DNA of 19,191 nucleotides from Cryomorphaceae bacterium (lineage in GTDB: Bacteria; Bacteroidota; Bacteroidia; Flavobacteriales; Crocinitomicaceae): the NCBI GenBank assembly GCA_021298235.1, contig JAJTDX010000036.1, forward strand, positions 1-19,191, read 5' to 3'. This document shows positions 1,123-10,628 of the stretch, piece after piece (the stretch's first letter is position 1; each line of letters starts with the position of its first letter). The notes beneath the pieces were generated by a model that had not been told where the DNA came from, did no database searches, and saw only the letters and a program-made list of their open reading frames with translations. A program made the translations under genes and the position numbers.

Positions 1123-2961
1123 ATGTTCGTTAAGAATTTATGGATTCTACTTTTTGTGGCAACGTTGATGAGATCTTCGTTATGTTGCGCTACGGACTAT
1201 TATGTAAACAACGGTTCCCTGGGTGGAGATGTCTACTGTACGGCAATCGGTAACAATGCCAATTCTGGTACGAATCCCGCTGCGCCCAAGGCATCTTTAA
1301 CGGCTATTTTGATAACATACTCCTCTACATTTTCATCAGGTGATCGAATATTCATTGATGCAGGTACCTATGCTGACAAAAATTTAAATCTAACGGTCAG
1401 CGGAATTACAATTTCAGGTGCGGGTCCAGCAAAAACGATTTTTGACAATTCAGGTGCTGGTACAGGATCTTCTAATCGCTTATTTAGTATTTCTGCAAGT
1501 AATATTACGCTAGAAAATTTTATGGTCAAAGGATACACATATAGTGTAGCCGGTGAAGCAAGTGCAATTGAAATTACTTCGGCGATTAACCTTTTGATGA
1601 ATAATGTTCTTGCGGATGGAAACACAGCCGGGGGAGGCAGCGCAACGATAAGAATATCAGGAGGATCCACAGTTACGTTGAATGGGGGTGGATCGAATTG
1701 CAATCCTTCCGGTGCTACATTAGCTGGAGGTGGAGTTAATGTTGAAGGGAATGGAAACAATGTTACTTTCAACAATTATTCTTTTTCAAACAATTCAAAG
1801 GATCTTCAACCAGGAGCTGCTTTGTATGTCGTAGGAAACAATACCACAAGTGTTACAATTAACAACTCTATCATTGCTGACAATCGGTGCACAAGCAATG
1901 GAGGTGCTGTGTTCATCTCAGGGGCGAACTTGACAGTGAACAGTTCCTATTTTCTGAACAATTCCTCCTACGGTGGTTCGGGACCTAAATATGGAGGTGC
2001 TGTGACAATTGGTCGAGGTGCAAATGTGTCTTTCACAAATTGTAAATTCGAAAACAATAGTGTGACAAATAGTGGTAACGGAGGGGCAATATCCATAAAT
2101 ACTGCAATTGCTGGTACAGGGAGTACTGCGGTTCTTAATGTTACGAATTGCTCCTTCATAAACAACTCGGCTTCTTCCGGAAGCGGGAATCATATTTTTG
2201 CACGCGTGGGCAGCTATAATTCCGCAGAAATTAATATCAATGAATCGTACTTTTCCAGCTCAACAACTAGTATAGTAAATGGAAATACAGCTGTATTCAG
2301 CATCCAGAATTCAGGAAATCCTTCAACATCCGGTGCTGTTGGATTCGTGAATACAAATTTGCCTTCAACGAGTGCGACTCCCTCTTTTCCGACTTTACAA
2401 GGAAGCTGTTATGGTATGGTGTTACCTGTAGAATTTATTGATCTAAATTCGTTCTGTTCAAACGGTTCAACTCATCTCTTATGGTCTACTGCTTCTGAAC
2501 ACAACAACGATTATTTTACCATCGAAACAGGCAATGAGCAGGGTGAATTTGAGGTGCTGGTGACAGTCAATGGTGCTGGGAATTCTAATGAGGAGCTGAC
2601 CTATCAACTTCCTGTGAGAGATGCAGCGTATTACCGTTTGTCTCAGACGGATTTTGACGGCACGAAGGTGGAATTGAAAACAGTTTCTGCAAGTCCGTGT
2701 AAAGACCATAGCTCAGAAATAGTTTACCTCGATCAGTTGCATGCCTTTGATATTTATTTGAAAGAGCAGTTTTCAGGTGATGTCCAATTTTCTATGATAA
2801 ATAGTGTGGGTCAGGTCATCGAACGTGTCACCCGCTCAAATGATAACACTAGTGTACAGCGAATATTTTTAAGTTCTTTTTGCTCCGATGGGATGTACTT
2901 CCTGCAAGTTACCGCCGGTTCGGTGGTGCTTTCAGAAAAGTTCATGATAAGAAAGCAATAG
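1123..2961 (+). CDS. Secreted right-handed beta-helix surface protein with T9SS C-terminal sorting domain
   Basis: The 612-residue protein starts with a signal peptide (about 1-23). Residues 26-110 resemble the DUF1565-type entry to a parallel beta-helix (YYVNNGS, NSGTNPAAPKASL, DAGTY). Residues about 110-415 are a Gly/Asn/Ser-rich helix with repeats spaced near 30 residues. These include FxNN motifs (279, 309, 345) and GGA[VI] motifs (260, 291, 320), a combination seen in polymorphic outer-membrane proteins. Residues about 434-525 match the common Bacteroidota module LPVEF...LLWSTASEHNNDYFTIE...YYRLSQTDFDG. Residues about 533-612 look like a type A T9SS sorting domain (SVGQVIE, GMYFLQVTAG, basic end). 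It is therefore expected to be exported by Sec, then by T9SS, and attached to the cell surface or released. The ligand or substrate is unknown; the fold allows adhesion or polysaccharide binding or cleavage, and no catalytic residues are assignable. It is monocistronic by its own promoter candidate and the terminator region downstream. Confidence 0.85.
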   Translation: MFVKNLWILLFVATLMRSSLCCATDYYVNNGSLGGDVYCTAIGNNANSGTNPAAPKASLTAILITYSSTFSSGDRIFIDAGTYADKNLNLTVSGITISGAGPAKTIFDNSGAGTGSSNRLFSISASNITLENFMVKGYTYSVAGEASAIEITSAINLLMNNVLADGNTAGGGSATIRISGGSTVTLNGGGSNCNPSGATLAGGGVNVEGNGNNVTFNNYSFSNNSKDLQPGAALYVVGNNTTSVTINNSIIADNRCTSNGGAVFISGANLTVNSSYFLNNSSYGGSGPKYGGAVTIGRGANVSFTNCKFENNSVTNSGNGGAISINTAIAGTGSTAVLNVTNCSFINNSASSGSGNHIFARVGSYNSAEININESYFSSSTTSIVNGNTAVFSIQNSGNPSTSGAVGFVNTNLPSTSATPSFPTLQGSCYGMVLPVEFIDLNSFCSNGSTHLLWSTASEHNNDYFTIETGNEQGEFEVLVTVNGAGNSNEELTYQLPVRDAAYYRLSQTDFDGTKVELKTVSASPCKDHSSEIVYLDQLHAFDIYLKEQFSGDVQFSMINSVGQVIERVTRSNDNTSVQRIFLSSFCSDGMYFLQVTAGSVVLSEKFMIRKQ

Positions 2962-2996
2962 TTTAGTAAGGTTTAGGTTAAGATTTAGGTTTAGGT
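2961..2996 (+). repeat. Degenerate hexanucleotide tract (GTTTAG-like units)
   Basis: The stretch is built from units GTTTAG, TAAG, GTTTAG, GTTAAG, ATTTAG, GTTTAG, GT, so four of the five hexamers are TTTAG-ending. It lies exactly between the surface-protein stop codon and the leader-peptide ATG and must contain or abut the 5' end of the ilv leader transcript. The closest -7 like matches inside it, TAGTTTAG (2959-2966) and TAGGTTTA (2986-2993), each differ from TAnnTTTG at one position, and no convincing -33 element was found. Confidence 0.5.
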
Positions 2997-3047
2997 ATGA
3001 AACAGGTAGTCATTATTCTCGTCATTCAAAACATTCCAGAGGAGTGA
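2997..3047 (+). CDS. ilv operon leader peptide, MKQVVIILVIQNIPEE (ilvL-like)
   Basis: ATG at 2997 opens a 16-codon frame that ends at TGA 3045-3047. Codons 4-10 are GTA GTC ATT ATT CTC GTC ATT, that is Val-Val-Ile-Ile-Leu-Val-Ile, with another Ile at codon 13. Eight of 16 residues are the three branched-chain amino acids, and the gene stands directly before the ilvEDBNCA operon with an intrinsic terminator in between. This is the form of leader peptides in enterobacterial ilv attenuators (established for E. coli ilvL and ivbL). The control codons overlap the 5' arm of a hairpin and the stop codon lies in the next arm, as attenuation requires. There is no clear Shine-Dalgarno sequence, which is usual in this phylum. 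The peptide itself is not expected to have a function beyond being translated. Translation has not been shown; the case is from codon content and position. Confidence 0.8.
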   Translation: MKQVVIILVIQNIPEE

Positions 3048-3102
3048 GAATCTGCCTGTATCATAAAAAAGGCCTTTCTCACATGGGAAAGGCCTTTTTT
3101 TT
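3002..3102 (+). promoter_or_regulatory. Ribosome-mediated transcription attenuator of the ilv operon
   Basis: Mutually exclusive pairings can be read directly. Pause hairpin (1:2): 3002-3008 ACAGGTA with 3053-3059 TGCCTGT (one G-T pair), and 3015-3020 ATTCTC with 3046-3051 GAGAAT. Antiterminator (2:3): 3044-3050 GTGAGAA with 3076-3082 TTCTCAC, all Watson-Crick, extended across a 3x2 internal loop by 3054-3057 GCCT with 3070-3073 AGGC. Terminator (3:4): 3065-3080 with 3085-3100. Expected behaviour: a ribosome stalled on the Val/Ile/Leu codons (3006-3026) covers arm 1, arm 2 pairs with arm 3, and transcription continues. A ribosome that reaches the stop codon (3045-3047) covers arm 2, and the terminator forms. 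The pairing is seen in sequence; the mechanism is inferred by analogy with E. coli. Confidence 0.78.
3065..3102 (+). terminator. Intrinsic terminator of the ilv leader
   Basis: A6-GGCCTTTC (3065-3078) pairs perfectly with GAAAGGCC-T6 (3087-3100). Two more pairs (T-G, C-G) close a 4-nt ACAT loop, for 16 bp in total, and the T tract runs to 3102 (8 T). It ends 21 nt before the ilvE ATG, so it cannot be only the terminator of the upstream gene unless ilvE is transcribed from within these 21 nt. The symmetric A and T tracts mean it could also stop antisense transcription. Confidence 0.9.
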
Positions 3103-3123
3103 AATTTGTAATTTTGTGATGTT

Positions 3124-4011
3124 ATGTATTATACGGAAGAAACAGTCGTTTTTTGGAACGGCGAATTTGTAAAAGCGAAAGACGCTAAAGTTGGATTGTA
3201 CAACCAAACCATGCATTATGGGAATGGAGTGTTTGAGGGGATCAGATCTTATGATACTCCAGACGGCACACGGATTTTTAAGGCGAAGGAACATTACGAT
3301 CGTTTGCATTATTCAGCTGAGAAAATGCACATTCAGCTTTCCTACACTTCTGATGAGTTGGAGACGATTACCTACCGCTTGCTTGAATTAAATGGGTTGA
3401 AGGATGCATATGTGCGCCCATTGGTGTACCTTGGTGAAAATATGTCACTCACACCAACTCAGGATGTGCATGTGGTCATCATGGCATGGGAATGGGGGAA
3501 ATACCTCGGAGATTCTATGTTGAAAGTGATGTTGTCTTCGTATCAACGTCCGAACCCTAAGGCATGTCATGTTCAGGCAAAGGTGGTGGGTCATTACACG
3601 AACAGTATCCTTGCAACTACCGAAGCAAAACAAAAAGGATTCGATGAAGCATTGTTGACGGACATCCAAGGTAACATCGCTGAAGGTCCCGGAGCAAATT
3701 TCTTTTACGAGAAGGATGGAGTTTTATATACTGCACCTTTGGGTAATATCCTCTCAGGAATTACGAGAGCCACTGTGTTTGAAATAGCCGAAGAGCTGGG
3801 TATTCAGGTGGTTGAGAAACTTTTTAAACCTGAGGAAATCTATACTGCAGATGCTGCTTTCTTTTGCGGAACTGCAGCTGAAGTAATTGGTATCGCACAA
3901 TTCAATGACTACAAATTTCCACTCAATTGGGAGGATTCTAATAGCCATTTGATCCAGCGAAAATACAAGCGAAGAGTGGCATTCAACGAATACCGTAATG
4001 TGTATCTGTAA
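3124..4011 (+). CDS. ilvE: Branched-chain amino acid aminotransferase (class IV)
   Basis: IlvE carries out the last step of isoleucine, valine and leucine synthesis, moving the amino group of glutamate onto the branched 2-oxo acids, with PLP as cofactor. The 295-residue length is normal for the family. Visible motifs are [18 protein letters not shown] near the N terminus, the PLP-binding Lys153 in [18 protein letters not shown], and [11 protein letters not shown] (about 186-196) that contacts the cofactor phosphate. The ATG at 3124 is chosen because [16 protein letters not shown] aligns with typical Bacteroidota IlvE starts. It is the first structural gene after the leader terminator and is separated from ilvD by 2 nt, so it is controlled by the attenuator. 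D-amino acid aminotransferase and ADC lyase share the fold, but the operon context makes IlvE clear. Confidence 0.96.
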
Positions 4012-4013
4012 CT

Positions 4014-5687
4014 ATGGAATTGAATAAATACAGTAAGATAGTCACTCAGGATGAAACTCAACCTGCATCTCAAGCAATGTTGTATGGGGTTGGCCTGACA
4101 GATGAGGACATGAAAAAACCTCAAGTTGGAATAGCTTCTACATGGTTTGAAGGTAACACCTGTAACATGCATCTCAATGGGTTATCGAAATTCGTAAAAG
4201 ATGGCGTTCAGCAAAATGGGCAGGTAGGCCTGCAGTTCAATACGATCGGTATCAGTGATGGAATTACCAATGGTACCGATGGGATGCGCTACTCACTTGT
4301 TTCGCGCGAGATCATTGCGGATTCAGTTGAGGCGGTCACGGCAGCACATTATTACGATGGGTTAGTAACTATTGCAGGATGCGATAAGAATATGCCAGGA
4401 ATGACCATGGCGATGATCCGTCTGAATAGACCTTCATTGATGGTTTATGGTGGTACAATCGCTTCCGGAAAATACAAAGGACAAACCTTGAACATCGTTT
4501 CGGCATTCGAAGCGCTGGGTGAACGTTATGCCGGCAAGATCTCTGAAGAAGATTACAAAGGAGTGATCAAAAATGCATGTCCGGGTGCAGGCGCATGCGG
4601 TGGTATGTACACGGCAAATACTTTGTCTTCGGCTATTGAAGCATTGGGTTTGAGTTTGCCATACAGCTCATCAAATCCGGCTATGAGTTCTGAAAAAAGG
4701 GAAGAGTGCCTAAATGTTGGAAAATACATGAAGATCTTATTGGAACGTGACATTAAGCCATCCGACATTCTTTCAAAAAAAGCTTTTGAGAATGCTCTTC
4801 GTGTGGTCATAGTCCTTGGAGGATCTACAAATGCGGTCCTGCACCTGATCGCCATGGCGAAAACAGCAGAAATAGATATCTCTTTGGAAGATGTGACGCG
4901 TATGAATAATGAGACACCACTTATTGCAGATCTCAAACCAAGTGGGAAATACCTGATGGAGGATGTATTCGCCATTGGGGGGGTTCCCGCGATCATGAAA
5001 TACCTGTTATCTAAAGGGTTGTTGCATGGAGATTGTTTAACGGTAACTGGAAAAACGATACGCGAAAATCTGGACGAACTACCAGGGCTTCCGGAAAACC
5101 AAGATGTGATCTATCCTGTCGAAAATCCATTAAAAGCATCTGGACATTTGAGAGTCTTGTATGGAAATCTTGCACCGGAAGGTTCAGTGGCAAAGATCAC
5201 AGGGAAAGAGGGTGAACAGTTCTCCGGACCGGCCATCGTATTCGAAGATGAGTTTGATTGCATCCGTGGAATTCGCGATGGTGAGGTGAAAGCCGGTAGC
5301 GTAGTGGTCATAAGAAATGAAGGGCCGAAAGGTGGCCCTGGAATGCCTGAAATGTTGAAGCCTACTTCCGCACTCATTGGTGCAGGGTTTGGAAATAGTG
5401 TGGCATTAATCACTGATGGCCGTTTCTCTGGAGGAACACATGGCTTCGTCGTAGGACACGTTTGTCCTGAGGCGTTTGATGGCGGACCTATTGCCTTAGT
5501 GAAGAATGGCGATTTCATTACGATCGATGCGATCAACAATACGATCAACATGGACGTATCAGAACAAGAATTAAACGAAAGAAAAAGGAATTGGACTCAA
5601 CCCGAACTAAAAGTGAAGACTGGTGTTTTGTATAAATATGCGAAACTGGTGAGTTCAGCTTCGGAAGGGTGTATCACAGACAAATAA
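4014..5687 (+). CDS. ilvD: Dihydroxy-acid dehydratase
   Basis: IlvD dehydrates 2,3-dihydroxy-3-methylvalerate and 2,3-dihydroxy-isovalerate to the 2-oxo acids that IlvE aminates. The 557-residue protein has Cys50 (EGNTC), Cys123 (GCDKNMPGM) and Cys195 ([13 protein letters not shown]), the expected iron-sulfur ligands. The three-cysteine pattern at this spacing is that of [2Fe-2S] members, but cluster type cannot be fixed from sequence alone. The C-terminal [18 protein letters not shown] is the family signature. The start is 2 nt after ilvE and the stop 6 nt before ilvB, inside the operon. A run of seven G (4977-4983) encodes part of AIGGVPA at residues 322-323. Confidence 0.97.
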
Positions 5688-5693
5688 TAAGAA

Positions 5694-7379
5694 ATGAATA
5701 TCAGAGGAGCCGAGGCGGTCATGCGCTGCCTTACAGAGGAGGGAGTAACAACAATTTTTGGCTATCCGGGTGGTGCAATAATGCCCGTTTACGATGCTTT
5801 GTATGATTTTAAAGAGCAAATCAATCACATTTTAGTGCGTCATGAACAGGGAGCAATTCATGCGGCACAGGGTTTTGCCCGTACGTCAGGAAAAGTTGGT
5901 GTTTGCTTAGCTACATCAGGACCGGGTGCGACCAACCTGATCACAGGTTTGGCTGATGCGATGATCGATTCCACTCCCGTAGTTTGTATTACAGGACAAG
6001 TGGCATCGCATTTACTCGGAACAGATGCATTTCAGGAAACAGACGTGATCGGTATTTCGATGCCTGTAACCAAGTACAATATTCAGGTCACCAGAGCTGA
6101 AGACATTGCTCCGGCTATGGCAAAGGCCTTTTATATTGCAGCTACAGGTCGACCGGGTCCAGTTTTGGTAGATATTACCAAAGATGCGCAATTTGGAATG
6201 GTCGATTTTACCTACGAAAAATGTCAATCGATTCGTAGTTATATTGCGAAGCCAAAGTTGGATCGTATAGCAATTGAGGATGCGGTTGCATTATTGAGCA
6301 CAGCACATAAGCCTTATTTATTGGTAGGACAGGGAGTGATCCTCTCCGAAGCACAAGGTGCTCTGTTGAATTTTGCTGAGAAGAGTGGAATTCCAGTTGC
6401 CCTTACCTTATTGGGTTTAGGAGCATTTCCTGCAGATCATCCCCTGTATGTTGGATATCTCGGAATGCATGGGAATTATGCGCCAAATATTCTGACCAAT
6501 GAATGCGATGTCATCGTTGCAGTGGGTATGCGTTTCGATGATCGTGTAACCGGGGATGTTTCCCGCTATGCAAAACAGGCCAAAGTGATCCACATTGATA
6601 TCGACCCTGCAGAGCTGAATAAGATCGTTAAAGCAGATGTGGCGATCAATGCTGATGCACGAGAGGCCCTGGAAGAATTGACAAAGTCAATCTCTGAAAG
6701 GAAGTATGCGCAATGGTTGCAACAATTTAGAGATCTGGAGCAGATTGAACTGAATGAGGTAGTGAACGATGCGATCAATCCACCGGATAATGAATTGAAA
6801 ATGGCCGAAGTAGTTGACCTTCTTTCGAAAAAAACAGATGGTCAGGCGATTGTCGTAACCGATGTGGGTCAGCATCAGATGATTGCTTCCCGCTATTACA
6901 AGTACAAGGGGTATCGCAATAACATTACCTCAGGAGGATTAGGAACCATGGGGTTTGCCTTGCCGGCAGCCATCGGTGCTAAACTTGGAAATCCGGAAAA
7001 AACAGTGGTAGCAATTATTGGCGACGGTGGATTCCAGATGACGATTCAGGAACTTGGGACAATACTTCAGGCTGAAATAGATGTGAAGATCCTGATTCTC
7101 AATAATAACTTCCTCGGAATGGTACGTCAATGGCAACAGCTGTTCTTTGATCGTCGCTATTCGTTTACCGAAATTGTGAATCCGAACTTTACGGCGATTG
7201 CCAAAGCCTACTCCGTAGATGCATCCAAGATCGAGCAGCGATTAGAGTTGGATGAAGCACTTGATCAAATGCTTAATTCTAAAGTAGCCTATCTATTGGA
7301 AGTAGTAGTCCAAAGAGAAGAAAACGTATTCCCAATGGTAGCTACGGGAGCTTCTGTTTCTGAAATCCGATTAAACTAA
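5694..7379 (+). CDS. ilvB: Acetolactate synthase, catalytic (large) subunit
   Basis: This ThDP- and FAD-dependent enzyme joins two pyruvates to acetolactate (valine, leucine branch) or pyruvate with 2-oxobutyrate to acetohydroxybutyrate (isoleucine branch). The 561 residues show the N-terminal GYPGGAIMPVYDAL with the catalytic Glu51 in VRHEQGAIHAAQGFAR, the middle domain, and a C-terminal ThDP/metal motif GDGGFQMT (443-450) ending in NNN and followed by LGMVRQWQ. These are typical of anabolic AHAS rather than the catabolic FAD-independent AlsS. The regulatory subunit gene follows after 9 nt, which supports a biosynthetic, feedback-regulated enzyme. Confidence 0.97.
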   Translation: MNIRGAEAVMRCLTEEGVTTIFGYPGGAIMPVYDALYDFKEQINHILVRHEQGAIHAAQGFARTSGKVGVCLATSGPGATNLITGLADAMIDSTPVVCITGQVASHLLGTDAFQETDVIGISMPVTKYNIQVTRAEDIAPAMAKAFYIAATGRPGPVLVDITKDAQFGMVDFTYEKCQSIRSYIAKPKLDRIAIEDAVALLSTAHKPYLLVGQGVILSEAQGALLNFAEKSGIPVALTLLGLGAFPADHPLYVGYLGMHGNYAPNILTNECDVIVAVGMRFDDRVTGDVSRYAKQAKVIHIDIDPAELNKIVKADVAINADAREALEELTKSISERKYAQWLQQFRDLEQIELNEVVNDAINPPDNELKMAEVVDLLSKKTDGQAIVVTDVGQHQMIASRYYKYKGYRNNITSGGLGTMGFALPAAIGAKLGNPEKTVVAIIGDGGFQMTIQELGTILQAEIDVKILILNNNFLGMVRQWQQLFFDRRYSFTEIVNPNFTAIAKAYSVDASKIEQRLELDEALDQMLNSKVAYLLEVVVQREENVFPMVATGASVSEIRLN

Positions 7380-7388
7380 AAGAATCTT

Positions 7389-7916
7389 ATGGAAACAACT
7401 TTCAACATATCGGTTTTCACTGAAAATAGTATTGGAATCCTCAATAGGATAACGATCATCTTTACGCGACGTCACTTGAATATCGAGAGTATCACGGCTT
7501 CAGAATGTGAGATCAAAGGAGTATATCGCTACACGATCGTATTGAATACGACCCTTGACCAGGTGAAAAAGGTCGTATCGCAGATCGAAAAACAAGTAGA
7601 AGTCCTCAAGGCGTTTTATCATACCGATGAACAAGTCGTTTACCAGGAGATCGCTTTGTATAAAATCCGCACAGATGCGTTCACTAACGGGACGACAGAA
7701 AAGATCATCCGTGATCACCATGCGCGCATTTTGAGTGTGGATAAGGATTTTATGATCATCGAAAAAACCGGTCAGCCTGAGGAGTTGACGCTTCTATTTG
7801 ATGAACTCAATGTTTTTGGGGTACTGGAATTTGTTCGTTCCGGACGTGTTGCCATTTCCAAACCGATGAAAACCCTCGAAGCATATTTAGAAGAATTAGC
7901 AGAAAATCATAGATAA
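7389..7916 (+). CDS. ilvN: Acetolactate synthase, regulatory (small) subunit
   Basis: The 175-residue protein begins with an ACT domain (about 4-75: [18 protein letters not shown] then the strand-helix containing [10 protein letters not shown]). A second ACT-like half follows (about 80-165). This subunit stimulates IlvB and gives valine feedback inhibition in characterised systems. It is slightly longer than E. coli IlvH (163) and much longer than IlvN (96), so in architecture it resembles IlvH. It is placed 9 nt after ilvB and 1 nt before ilvC, so stoichiometric coexpression with the catalytic subunit is expected. Effector identity cannot be read from the sequence. Confidence 0.93.
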
Positions 7917-7917
7917 A

Positions 7918-9384
7918 ATGAATTATTTCAATCAATTACCTTTTAGAAAGCAAACCGAACAACTCGCAAAATGTGAGTTTTTAGATAATTCCCACTTTCA
8001 GCATGGAGTTGAAGCCTTGAAAGGTAAAAAGATCGTCATCGTTGGATGCGGCGCCCAAGGCTTGAACCAGGGACTTAACATGCGCGATTCCGGGCTCGAT
8101 ATCTCCTATGCTTTGCGTGAAGATGCTATTCGTGATCAACGTATTTCCTGGAAAAATGCCACTGACAATGGATTTCAAGTCGGTACCTATCAAGAGCTTA
8201 TTCCAACAGCCGATTTGGTATGTAACCTTACTCCCGATAAACAACATACATCTGTCGTAAATGCGATCATGCCTTTGATGAAACAAGGAGCGACCTTGTC
8301 CTATTCTCACGGATTCAACATCGTGGAAGAAGGAATGCAGATCCGTGAAGACCTCACCGTTATTATGGTGGCACCTAAATGTCCGGGAACCGAAGTGCGT
8401 GAAGAATACAAACGAGGTTTTGGAGTGCCAACGCTTATTGCGGTGCATCCGGAAAATGATCCGGAAGGCAAGGGATTTGAGCTCGCAAAAGCATATGCTG
8501 CTGCGACAGGCGGACATCGTGCTGGGGTATTACTTTCTTCCTTTGTGGCAGAAGTGAAATCAGATCTGATGGGTGAACAAACCATCTTGTGTGGATTGCT
8601 TCAGACAGGTTCAATTCTTTCATTTGACAAAATGGTTGAAAAAGGGATCGAACCAGGCTATGCGGCAAAATTGATCCAATATGGTTGGGAAACGATCACG
8701 GAGGCTTTGAAACATGGTGGAATCACCCATATGATGGACCGTCTTTCGAATCCTTCGAAGGTAATGGCCTTTGAATTGGCTGAACAATTAAAAGACATTA
8801 TGCGTCCCTTGTTCCGTAAACATATGGATGACATTATGAGCGGCGCATTTTCTGACCGAATGATGATCGACTGGAAAAATGGAGACCAGGAATTGCATAC
8901 TTGGCGTGCAGCAACTGGTGAAACGGCATTTGAAAAAACACTTGCCACTTCTCAGCCTTTCGCTGAACAAGAGTTCTTTGACCACGGAACCTTGTTAGTT
9001 GCTTTTGTGAAATCAGGAGTAGAATTAGCCTATGAAACAATGACCGAAACAGGTATCGTTGCAGAGTCTGCCTATTATGAGTCACTTCATGAAGCGCCGC
9101 TAATTGCCAACACAATTGCCCGCAAGAAATTGTATGAAATGAATCGCATCATTTCGGATACTGCTGAATACGGCTGCTATTTATTTGATCATGCGTGCAA
9201 ACCCTTGCTCGGTGACTTTATGAAGAAGATAGAAACAAGTGTGCTTGGTCGTCCGTTTAGTGATTCTAATCAGGTCGATAATAAGCGCCTGATAGAAGTG
9301 AATAAAGCTATCCGTCAACATCCAATTGAAACTGTTGGAGCCTATTTGCGAGAGCAGATGACTAACATGAAAAGCTTGAACTAA
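7918..9384 (+). CDS. ilvC: Ketol-acid reductoisomerase (class II, long form)
   Basis: IlvC isomerises and reduces acetolactate or acetohydroxybutyrate to the dihydroxy acid used by IlvD, with NADPH and Mg2+. At 488 residues it is the long class II type, close to E. coli IlvC (about 491) across its length. Matching blocks include [20 protein letters not shown] (cofactor loop), [46 protein letters not shown], and the duplicated C-terminal half with [20 protein letters not shown]. The start is 1 nt after the ilvN stop and the last base of the stop is the first base of the ilvA ATG, so translation is probably coupled. Many bacteria carry the short class I enzyme instead. Confidence 0.97.
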
Positions 9385-10628
9385 TGGTTAGTTTGGAGGA
9401 CGTCCGTAAGGCGCAGTTACAATTAAATGGGGTGGTTCAGGAGACTCCTTGTTTGCCAAATCTTCATTTATCAGACACATATGCTGCCACTATCTTCTTG
9501 AAACGTGAGGATCTTCAACTTGTACGTTCTTACAAAATACGCGGTGCTTTCAATAAAATAAGCTCGTTATCTGACGATGAGAAAAAGCAGGGGATCGTTT
9601 GTGCCAGTGCAGGAAATCATGCGCAGGGCGTTGCCTACTCATGTCACTTGTTAAATATTCAAGGAACGATTTACATGCCTGCAACCACCCCAAAACAAAA
9701 GGTTAGACAGGTAGAATTGTTTGGAAAAAATAATGTGAACATTGTTTTACAGGGTGATACCTTTGACGATTCATATGCTGCTGCGATGGATTTTTGTCAG
9801 CAAAATCATAATGTGTTTGTTCATCCCTTTGATGACGAGAAGGTTATTTCCGGTCAGGGAACAGTCGGATTGGAGATTCTCGAACAGGTAAGAGAGAAGA
9901 TTGACATAGTGTTGGTCCCCGTAGGGGGGGGTGGGCTGATCTCAGGAATTTTGAGCGTTTTCTCCCAGTTGAGCCCCGATACAGAGGTCATTGGTGTGGA
10001 ACCATTGGGAGCGCCAGCTATGCAGGTATCACTGAAGAAAGGCAAGAATACACAATTGGATGAGATCGATAAGTTCGTCGATGGTGCAGCAGTAAAACGT
10101 GTCGGTGATGCGAATTTCGAGATTTGTAAGCAATGGCTCAGTGAGGTCATTCTCGTAGCTGAAGGAAAAGTGTGCTCGACCATTCTGAAATTATACAACG
10201 AACAGGCGATGGTGGTAGAACCGGCTGGAGCATTAACCATTGCTGCCTTGGATCAGCTGGTAGATCGCATTAAAGGAAAGAATGTGGTATGTATCGTCAG
10301 TGGCAGTAACAACGATATCACCCGAACCGAAGAGATAAAAGAAAGGTCCTTATTCTACGAGGGATTAAAGCATTATTTTCTGATCCAGTTTCCGCAACGC
10401 CCGGGTGCTCTGAAGGACTTCGTGACGAAGGTGCTTGGAGAGAATGACGACATCACCTTTTTCCAGTTCTCCAAGAAAAACAATCGGGAAAGCGGTCCGG
10501 CTGTGGTTGGTATCGAACTTAAAACTCCGGAAGATTTCAAAGCAATAACAACCAATTTGGAAAGATTGCATTTTCAGTTTCAGTATCTGAACGAAGACCC
10601 AGATTTATTCACGCAGCTGATAGGGTAA
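9384..10628 (+). CDS. ilvA: Threonine dehydratase (deaminase), biosynthetic, single regulatory domain
   Basis: IlvA converts threonine to 2-oxobutyrate, the entry step of isoleucine synthesis. The 414-residue protein has the PLP Lys51 in VRSYKIRGAF, the substrate loop SAGNHAQG (75-82), and the glycine loop GGGG (181-184) that holds the PLP phosphate. A C-terminal ACT-like domain (about 325-414, from HYFLIQFPQRPGALKDF) would bind isoleucine or valine. E. coli IlvA is about 514 residues with two such domains; this is the shorter type seen in Bacillus. The C-terminal domain argues for the biosynthetic enzyme over the catabolic TdcB. The ATG overlaps the ilvC TAA by one base, so it is the last gene of the operon. 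An eight-G run (9924-9931) encodes the glycine loop. Confidence 0.95.
   Translation: MVSLEDVRKAQLQLNGVVQETPCLPNLHLSDTYAATIFLKREDLQLVRSYKIRGAFNKISSLSDDEKKQGIVCASAGNHAQGVAYSCHLLNIQGTIYMPATTPKQKVRQVELFGKNNVNIVLQGDTFDDSYAAAMDFCQQNHNVFVHPFDDEKVISGQGTVGLEILEQVREKIDIVLVPVGGGGLISGILSVFSQLSPDTEVIGVEPLGAPAMQVSLKKGKNTQLDEIDKFVDGAAVKRVGDANFEICKQWLSEVILVAEGKVCSTILKLYNEQAMVVEPAGALTIAALDQLVDRIKGKNVVCIVSGSNNDITRTEEIKERSLFYEGLKHYFLIQFPQRPGALKDFVTKVLGENDDITFFQFSKKNNRESGPAVVGIELKTPEDFKAITTNLERLHFQFQYLNEDPDLFTQLIG

Follow-up and report, generated by a model that had tools for sequence, protein, structure and literature searches.

Our analyses predict that the branched-chain amino acid operon of this Cryomorphaceae bacterium is very probably preceded by a complete, classical ribosome-mediated transcription attenuator that senses charged Val-, Ile- and Leu-tRNA. 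All the sequence features of such an element are present in the window (the whole 19,191-nt stretch of DNA analysed): a leader reading frame with a run of control codons, an intrinsic terminator, a mutually exclusive antiterminator and a 1:2 hairpin over the control codons. A scan of both strands revealed no other module in the window that joins an open reading frame with an amino-acid run to a terminator.

The operon comprises ilvE (branched-chain transaminase, 3124-4011), ilvD (dihydroxy-acid dehydratase, 4014-5687), ilvB (acetolactate synthase large subunit, 5694-7379), ilvN (acetolactate synthase small subunit, 7389-7916), ilvC (ketol-acid reductoisomerase, 7918-9384) and ilvA (threonine ammonia-lyase, 9384-10628). 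These genes are tightly packed up to 10628 on the forward strand, the strand of the leader and of the RNA arms described below, and each scored above at least one NCBIfam cut-off for its enzyme (TIGR00119 for ilvN). Ahead of ilvE, the leader frame MKQVVIILVIQNIPEE (2997-3047, assigned by reading the frame and by its conservation) has 16 codons followed by a TGA stop (3045-3047). Codons 4-10 (3006-3026) read Val-Val-Ile-Ile-Leu-Val-Ile, the run that an earlier note, made from the letters of this DNA, had pointed out. No Shine-Dalgarno-type start was seen at this leader.

The RNA from the leader onwards can fold in alternative ways. The intrinsic terminator (arms 3 and 4, 3065-3102) consists of a 16-bp stem (3065-3080/3085-3100) with a 4-nt loop and a T8 tail (3095-3102), and it ends 21 nt before ilvE (3124). 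Arm 2 (3039-3065) contains the leader stop codon and has two alternative partners: arm 1 (2996-3027, in which the start codon lies) and the antiterminator side of arm 3 (3070-3082, made up of 3070-3073 and 3076-3082), which it would contact by its segments 3044-3050 and 3054-3057. Arms 1 and 2 were assigned from folds and covariation, and arm 3 from folds and pairing in the alignment. At the core of the switch, GTGAGAA at 3044-3050 can pair with ATTCTC at 3015-3020 or with TTCTCAC at 3076-3082. The earlier note had claimed both of these pairings, the terminator with its tail and its distance from ilvE, the leader stop within arm 2 and an antiterminator overlapping the 5' arm of the terminator, and each was found where it had been placed. 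The antiterminator has, in addition, a second block (GCCU 3054-3057 with AGGC 3070-3073) and as a whole spans 3044-3057/3070-3082. The hairpin that the note had drawn across the control codons exists but is bigger than described, with 25 pairs between 2996-3027 and 3039-3065; at 2996-3065, it spans the start codon and most of the control codons. Folding of 2990-3110 gave -44.3 kcal/mol (z -7.4), and none of 200 shuffles was as stable.

We simulated the switch with a ribosome assumed to shield the RNA as far as 13 nt beyond the first nucleotide of the codon in its A site. When it stalls at codons 4-10, the RNA left free up to 3085 folds as the antiterminator (-14 to -15 kcal/mol); with the ribosome at the leader stop, arm 2 is hidden and the terminator has no competitor; and with no ribosome, the 1:2 hairpin forms (-22.6 kcal/mol). 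As the model ribosome advances along the leader, the fold switches as in textbook attenuation. Once the RNA is complete, the terminator exceeds the antiterminator in stability, and the decision must therefore fall before arm 4 has been transcribed. We infer the transcription start, the translation of the leader, the termination itself and the response to amino acids. RNA polymerase would transcribe the leader and a ribosome would start on it. Under shortage of a branched-chain amino acid, the ribosome would stall at codons 4-10 and cover arm 1; arms 2 and 3 could then form the antiterminator ahead of the synthesis of arm 4, and the polymerase would continue into ilvEDBNCA. When amino acids are plentiful, the ribosome would reach the stop codon and cover arm 2, and arms 3 and 4 would terminate transcription near 3102. 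If no ribosome is loaded, arms 1 and 2 would pair, which would also free the terminator.

The leader could instead act mainly through reinitiation of ribosomes at ilvE, boosting its translation. An excerpt of PMC4833913 proposes that ribosomes reinitiate from leader genes and gives, for Bacteroidetes, a peak of 11-14 bp, whereas the leader stop in the window lies 76 nt before ilvE with a strong terminator in between, and we see next to no chance that reinitiation is its main role.

The gene upstream of the leader (1123-2961), of a T9SS/adhesin-like family, stops 35 nt 5' of it. In a protein search, relatives of this gene were annotated as putative adhesin or T9SS-sorted proteins, and its Por_Secre_tail match is under the Pfam cut-off (22.3 versus 27). 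The spacer between this gene and the leader (2962-2996) must hold or follow the promoter. Neither the window nor its clade shows a clear TAnnTTTG promoter box ahead of the leader; the best box in the window spacer agrees at 5 of 6 positions (TAGGTTTA), and the predicted transcription start then falls at the AUG. The spacer carries TTTAGG-like repeats directly before the leader (2967-2995), which are kept in two close relatives (L001, L184) and varied in two others (L188, L190). With at most one mismatch, TTAGGTTTAGG has 3 matches in the window versus 0.28 expected. About 60 nt 5' of the leader are identical in L001 and L184 except for one T.

A scan of 2600-3300 revealed no terminator between the upstream gene and the attenuator hairpin. 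Because the upstream gene has no terminator of its own there, the attenuator terminator may also end its transcripts. This arrangement, like the lack of a clear promoter box before the leader, would also suit a hairpin that is a plain terminator of the upstream gene, with an ilvE promoter after 3102 and a short reading frame that is accidental. We consider such an arrangement very unlikely: the T-run lies only 21 nt from ilvE, the arms covary, and a frame rich in Val, Ile and Leu precedes the terminator in most relatives.

This conservation, which the earlier note had proposed as a check, was profiled in the best 80 of 145 loci related by IlvE, 79 of which had upstream DNA and, with the window, made up a set of 80; L068 had no upstream DNA and was left out of all counts. 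A strict rule (ATG start, 8-40 codons, at least five of seven codons Val/Ile/Leu, stop 0-75 nt before a terminator, within 260 nt upstream) detected leader and terminator in 56 of these 80 loci (best 80 of 145) and in none of 400 dinucleotide shuffles. When the rule was relaxed (four or more of eight Val/Ile/Leu, within 620 nt), they were detected in 74/80 (best 80 of 145; the module of L056, 539 nt upstream, included) compared with 3/80 on the antisense strand and 1/240 dinucleotide shuffles. A conserved Ile/Val/Leu-rich short frame is thus widespread in the relatives, which argues against the accidental frame of the plain-terminator reading and for an attenuator. The gap from stop to terminator was 18-38 nt in all relaxed-rule modules except a false positive, the first module of L022, which we dropped; a second module in L032 was added by inspection. 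Three loci (L026, L053, L065) fail the relaxed rule, yet both leader and terminator are visible on inspection, and three others (L057, L072, L073; 3/80 by rule and inspection) have neither a leader nor an attenuator-like terminator. The Val/Ile-rich leader upstream of ilvE in L026 seems to start with TTG, not ATG. Several loci are of Pedobacter and Chitinophagaceae type (L061, L062, L066, L069, L074-L078, L080), and in these the G-rich stretch complementary to the 5' arm of the terminator seems to lie inside the last leader codons upstream of ilvE, not after the stop. Locus titles name Flavobacteriales, Sphingobacteriales, Chitinophagaceae and, among other genera, Fulvivirga, Reichenbachiella and Microscilla, although several titles of binned genomes look doubtful. 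The loci are not independent events because near-duplicates exist (the leaders of L044 and L045 are identical, those of L034 and L035 nearly so).

We also sampled the phylum through ilvD. The sample held 118 genomes, 86 of them over the cut-off, and the 86 loci were scanned; one further match (G009) was omitted, its ilv locus being L050, which was already counted. Raw matches were found at 19 of the 48 loci in the lower-scoring IlvD group, one of them (L183) doubtful, and on the antisense strand at 1/86. The 38 loci with higher IlvD scores, which appear to be Bacteroidales-like (our own reading, not an assigned label), gave three raw matches that were unlike leaders and judged spurious.

The earlier note had also called for compensatory changes in the arms. 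We swapped arms among 132 distinct modules (97 ilv, 21 from the ilvD sample and 14 his), and the swaps support both alternative helices. Antiterminator arms 2 and 3 paired better within their own module (-8.90) than on permutation (mean -6.64, sd 0.16; best of 2000, -7.31), and so did the leader with its own arm 2 in the 1:2 hairpin (-11.43 versus -9.34, sd 0.22; best of 2000, -9.98). The own partner was better than the average of the others' in 103/132 modules for arms 2-3 and in 85/132 for 1:2. In the remaining 29/132, arm 3 suited arm 2 no better than the swap average; these weak cases include a run directly before ilvD (L143, L145, L146, L148, L151, L154, L157, L167), where the antiterminator as we defined it may be wrong or absent. 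Within the window clade (12 sequences), arms 1 and 2 gave -13.98 versus -10.37 (sd 0.91), a value reached by 0 of 5000 permutations. In the partner tables, six positions of arm 1 have changes on both sides of the pair; the partners there come from the minimum-energy fold of each individual sequence, a choice biased towards pairs. In a plain alignment, the signal for 1:2 was modest, with 68.4% of cells paired (reached in 12/500 shuffles) and covariation reached in 6/500, and that for the antiterminator was good, with 88.7% paired (1/500) and covariation at 1/500. Pairs changed on both sides were matched in 220/500 shuffles for 1:2 and in 269/500 for the antiterminator. The antiterminator core UGAGA/UCUCA is uninformative in the window clade because it is invariant there.

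Alternative folds alone do not tell what the sensor is. A T-box, an unknown riboswitch or an RNA-binding protein might switch the terminator, with no sensing by the leader. However, the conserved codon content tracks the operon: Val/Ile/Leu before ilv, His before hisG and Trp before trpE. In the genomes of the relatives, hisG was found in 17 of 20, and 14 of these 17 loci have a leader with a His run and a terminator (0/170 shuffles). All 16 full-length matches to the trpE model have a leader with a Trp run and a terminator (16/16, versus 0/160 shuffles); the other 4 of 20 trpE-model loci, from the other 4 genomes, are partial matches with no Trp leader module. Upstream of trpE in L219, there are two successive leaders with Trp runs, each with its own terminator. 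No Thr leader was detected at homoserine dehydrogenase (0/27 loci), but the 1500-nt flank barely reaches the start of these fusion frames of about 810-840 aa because the homoserine dehydrogenase domain lies far into the gene.

Searches with Rfam likewise point away from a known riboswitch. No family reached its gathering score on the window, RF01692 Bacteroid-trp and T-box included, and neither of these two was among the 24 weak matches (E up to 10) in 2900-3200, where RF00506 Thr_leader reached 27 bits versus the 55 required. There were no gathering-score matches on 13 ilv and 3 his loci of relatives, and on a set of 9 trp, 4 his and 3 ilv loci the sole matches were RF01692 in 3 of the 9 trp loci (L214, L215, L218). 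We therefore regard a riboswitch or protein as an extremely improbable sensor and retain the leader peptide in that role. Because no family reaches its threshold on the window, the ilv leader is uncatalogued in Rfam 15.

Tandem arrays are the part of these results that specialists would least expect. Two ilv modules in series were found in 14/80 loci (best 80 of 145; L031, L032, L034, L035, L037, L039, L041, L044-L047, L055, L064, L070), and three in 2/80 (best 80 of 145), namely L060 (Aequorivita sinensis) and L063 (Flavobacterium limnosediminis), whose arrays lie within about 430 nt upstream of ilvE. Modules 2 and 3 are nearly alike in L060 and in L063 and therefore look like duplications. 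The ilvD sample adds three tandem loci (L149, L159, L161). For 17 tandem loci (without L032 and the duplicate L045), an exact TAnnTTTG box occurs at most 40 nt before the leader start in 11/17 first modules versus 1/19 later ones (L037). Arm 2 paired better with arm 3 of its own module (-9.08, n=36) than with that of its neighbours (-6.61, n=42). This pattern of predicted boxes and arms fits control in series from one promoter.

More broadly, exact boxes at most 40 nt upstream precede 44/112 first leaders, compared with a mean of 4.1 and a maximum of 11 in 200 shuffles, and 53/112 have one within 90 nt, with a predicted median 5' UTR of 14 nt. The predicted 5' UTR is at most 10 nt in 17/112 first leaders (shuffled mean 1.3, largest 5). 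These predictions use the box spacing of PMC9723704: in excerpt, that paper has the sigma-A box TAnnTTTG span -12 to -5 (coordinates stated for a related motif said to lie "at the same position"), with 5' UTRs of 24 nt at the median and 5.5% of mRNAs leaderless. Near-leaderless leaders as a general rule are only partly supported by these counts (44/112 with a box, 17/112 with a UTR of at most 10 nt), and we withhold the claim for the window because its clade shows no clear box.

The evidence seems to us evenly poised on a wider reading, in which many Bacteroidota outside the Bacteroidales-like group would place ilv under two or three serial attenuators downstream of a single promoter, every one with a leader and a matched antiterminator of its own; the first leader would often lie very near the predicted transcription start with no Shine-Dalgarno site, and the attenuator of the window would be the single-stage form. 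Such a cascade would need read-through at every stage and would therefore sharpen the response to starvation.

Enterobacterial ilv attenuators have a leader peptide rich in Val, Ile and Leu, alternative 1:2, 2:3 and 3:4 hairpins and a terminator before the structural genes. The window has the same leader codons, alternative hairpins and a terminator before ilv, but it belongs to another phylum, its leader is shorter, the stop lies in arm 2 and no Shine-Dalgarno-type start was seen. Within Bacteroidota, a tryptophan leader, Bacteroid-trp (RF01692), was listed in 2010 (PMC2864571, in excerpt). Judged by its name and the loci it matched, it shares the phylum and the leader-plus-terminator logic with the window but has Trp codons and precedes trpE, and the model has no match on the window. 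Excerpts of a report on Flavobacterium psychrophilum (PMC9723704) give strong clues to leader-peptide attenuation upstream of amino-acid operons; these structured 5' regions with short peptides, in Flavobacteriaceae, resemble the window, although those excerpts mention neither an ilv leader nor any arms. Short open reading frames in Bacteroides reminiscent of attenuation leaders are mentioned in part of PMC7366714.

Outside the phylum, the Corynebacterium ilvBNC attenuator (PMC11857589, PMC10272879, both in excerpt) also combines a leader frame with alternative hairpins before ilv in a non-proteobacterium, but it is actinobacterial and its operon order differs. The Salmonella mgtCBR tandem attenuators (excerpt of PMC3641672) are like the tandem relatives in having two leader frames in one 5' region; however, they do not serve amino-acid biosynthesis, whereas the modules of the relatives have a terminator each and the same kind of codons, and the window, unlike mgtCBR, has a single module. 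In 2010, to the knowledge of the authors of PMC2965389 (in excerpt), leader-peptide systems had been shown only in Proteobacteria and Actinobacteria, and they added Firmicutes. No ilv leader in Bacteroidota was named in the literature searched, most of it non-subscription, and an earlier description in print may exist. A 2010 survey by Lopatovskaya and colleagues may cover Bacteroidetes and may list an ilv leader. The earlier note had called it notable to find all parts of an attenuator in this phylum; such an attenuator is less surprising than first stated because of the RF01692 Trp leader and the Flavobacterium clues (PMC9723704, in excerpt). The attenuator is of a known kind and not an isolated novelty.

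These findings suggest that much of Bacteroidota keeps branched-chain amino acid, histidine and tryptophan synthesis under constant control by ribosome-mediated attenuation. They make it possible to test how ribosomes load quickly enough on leaders in bacteria where Shine-Dalgarno sequences are reported absent (flavobacteria, in excerpts of PMC9723704), and why certain lineages place two or three attenuators in a row ahead of a single operon. They would justify a new Rfam family and the annotation of overlooked small leader genes.
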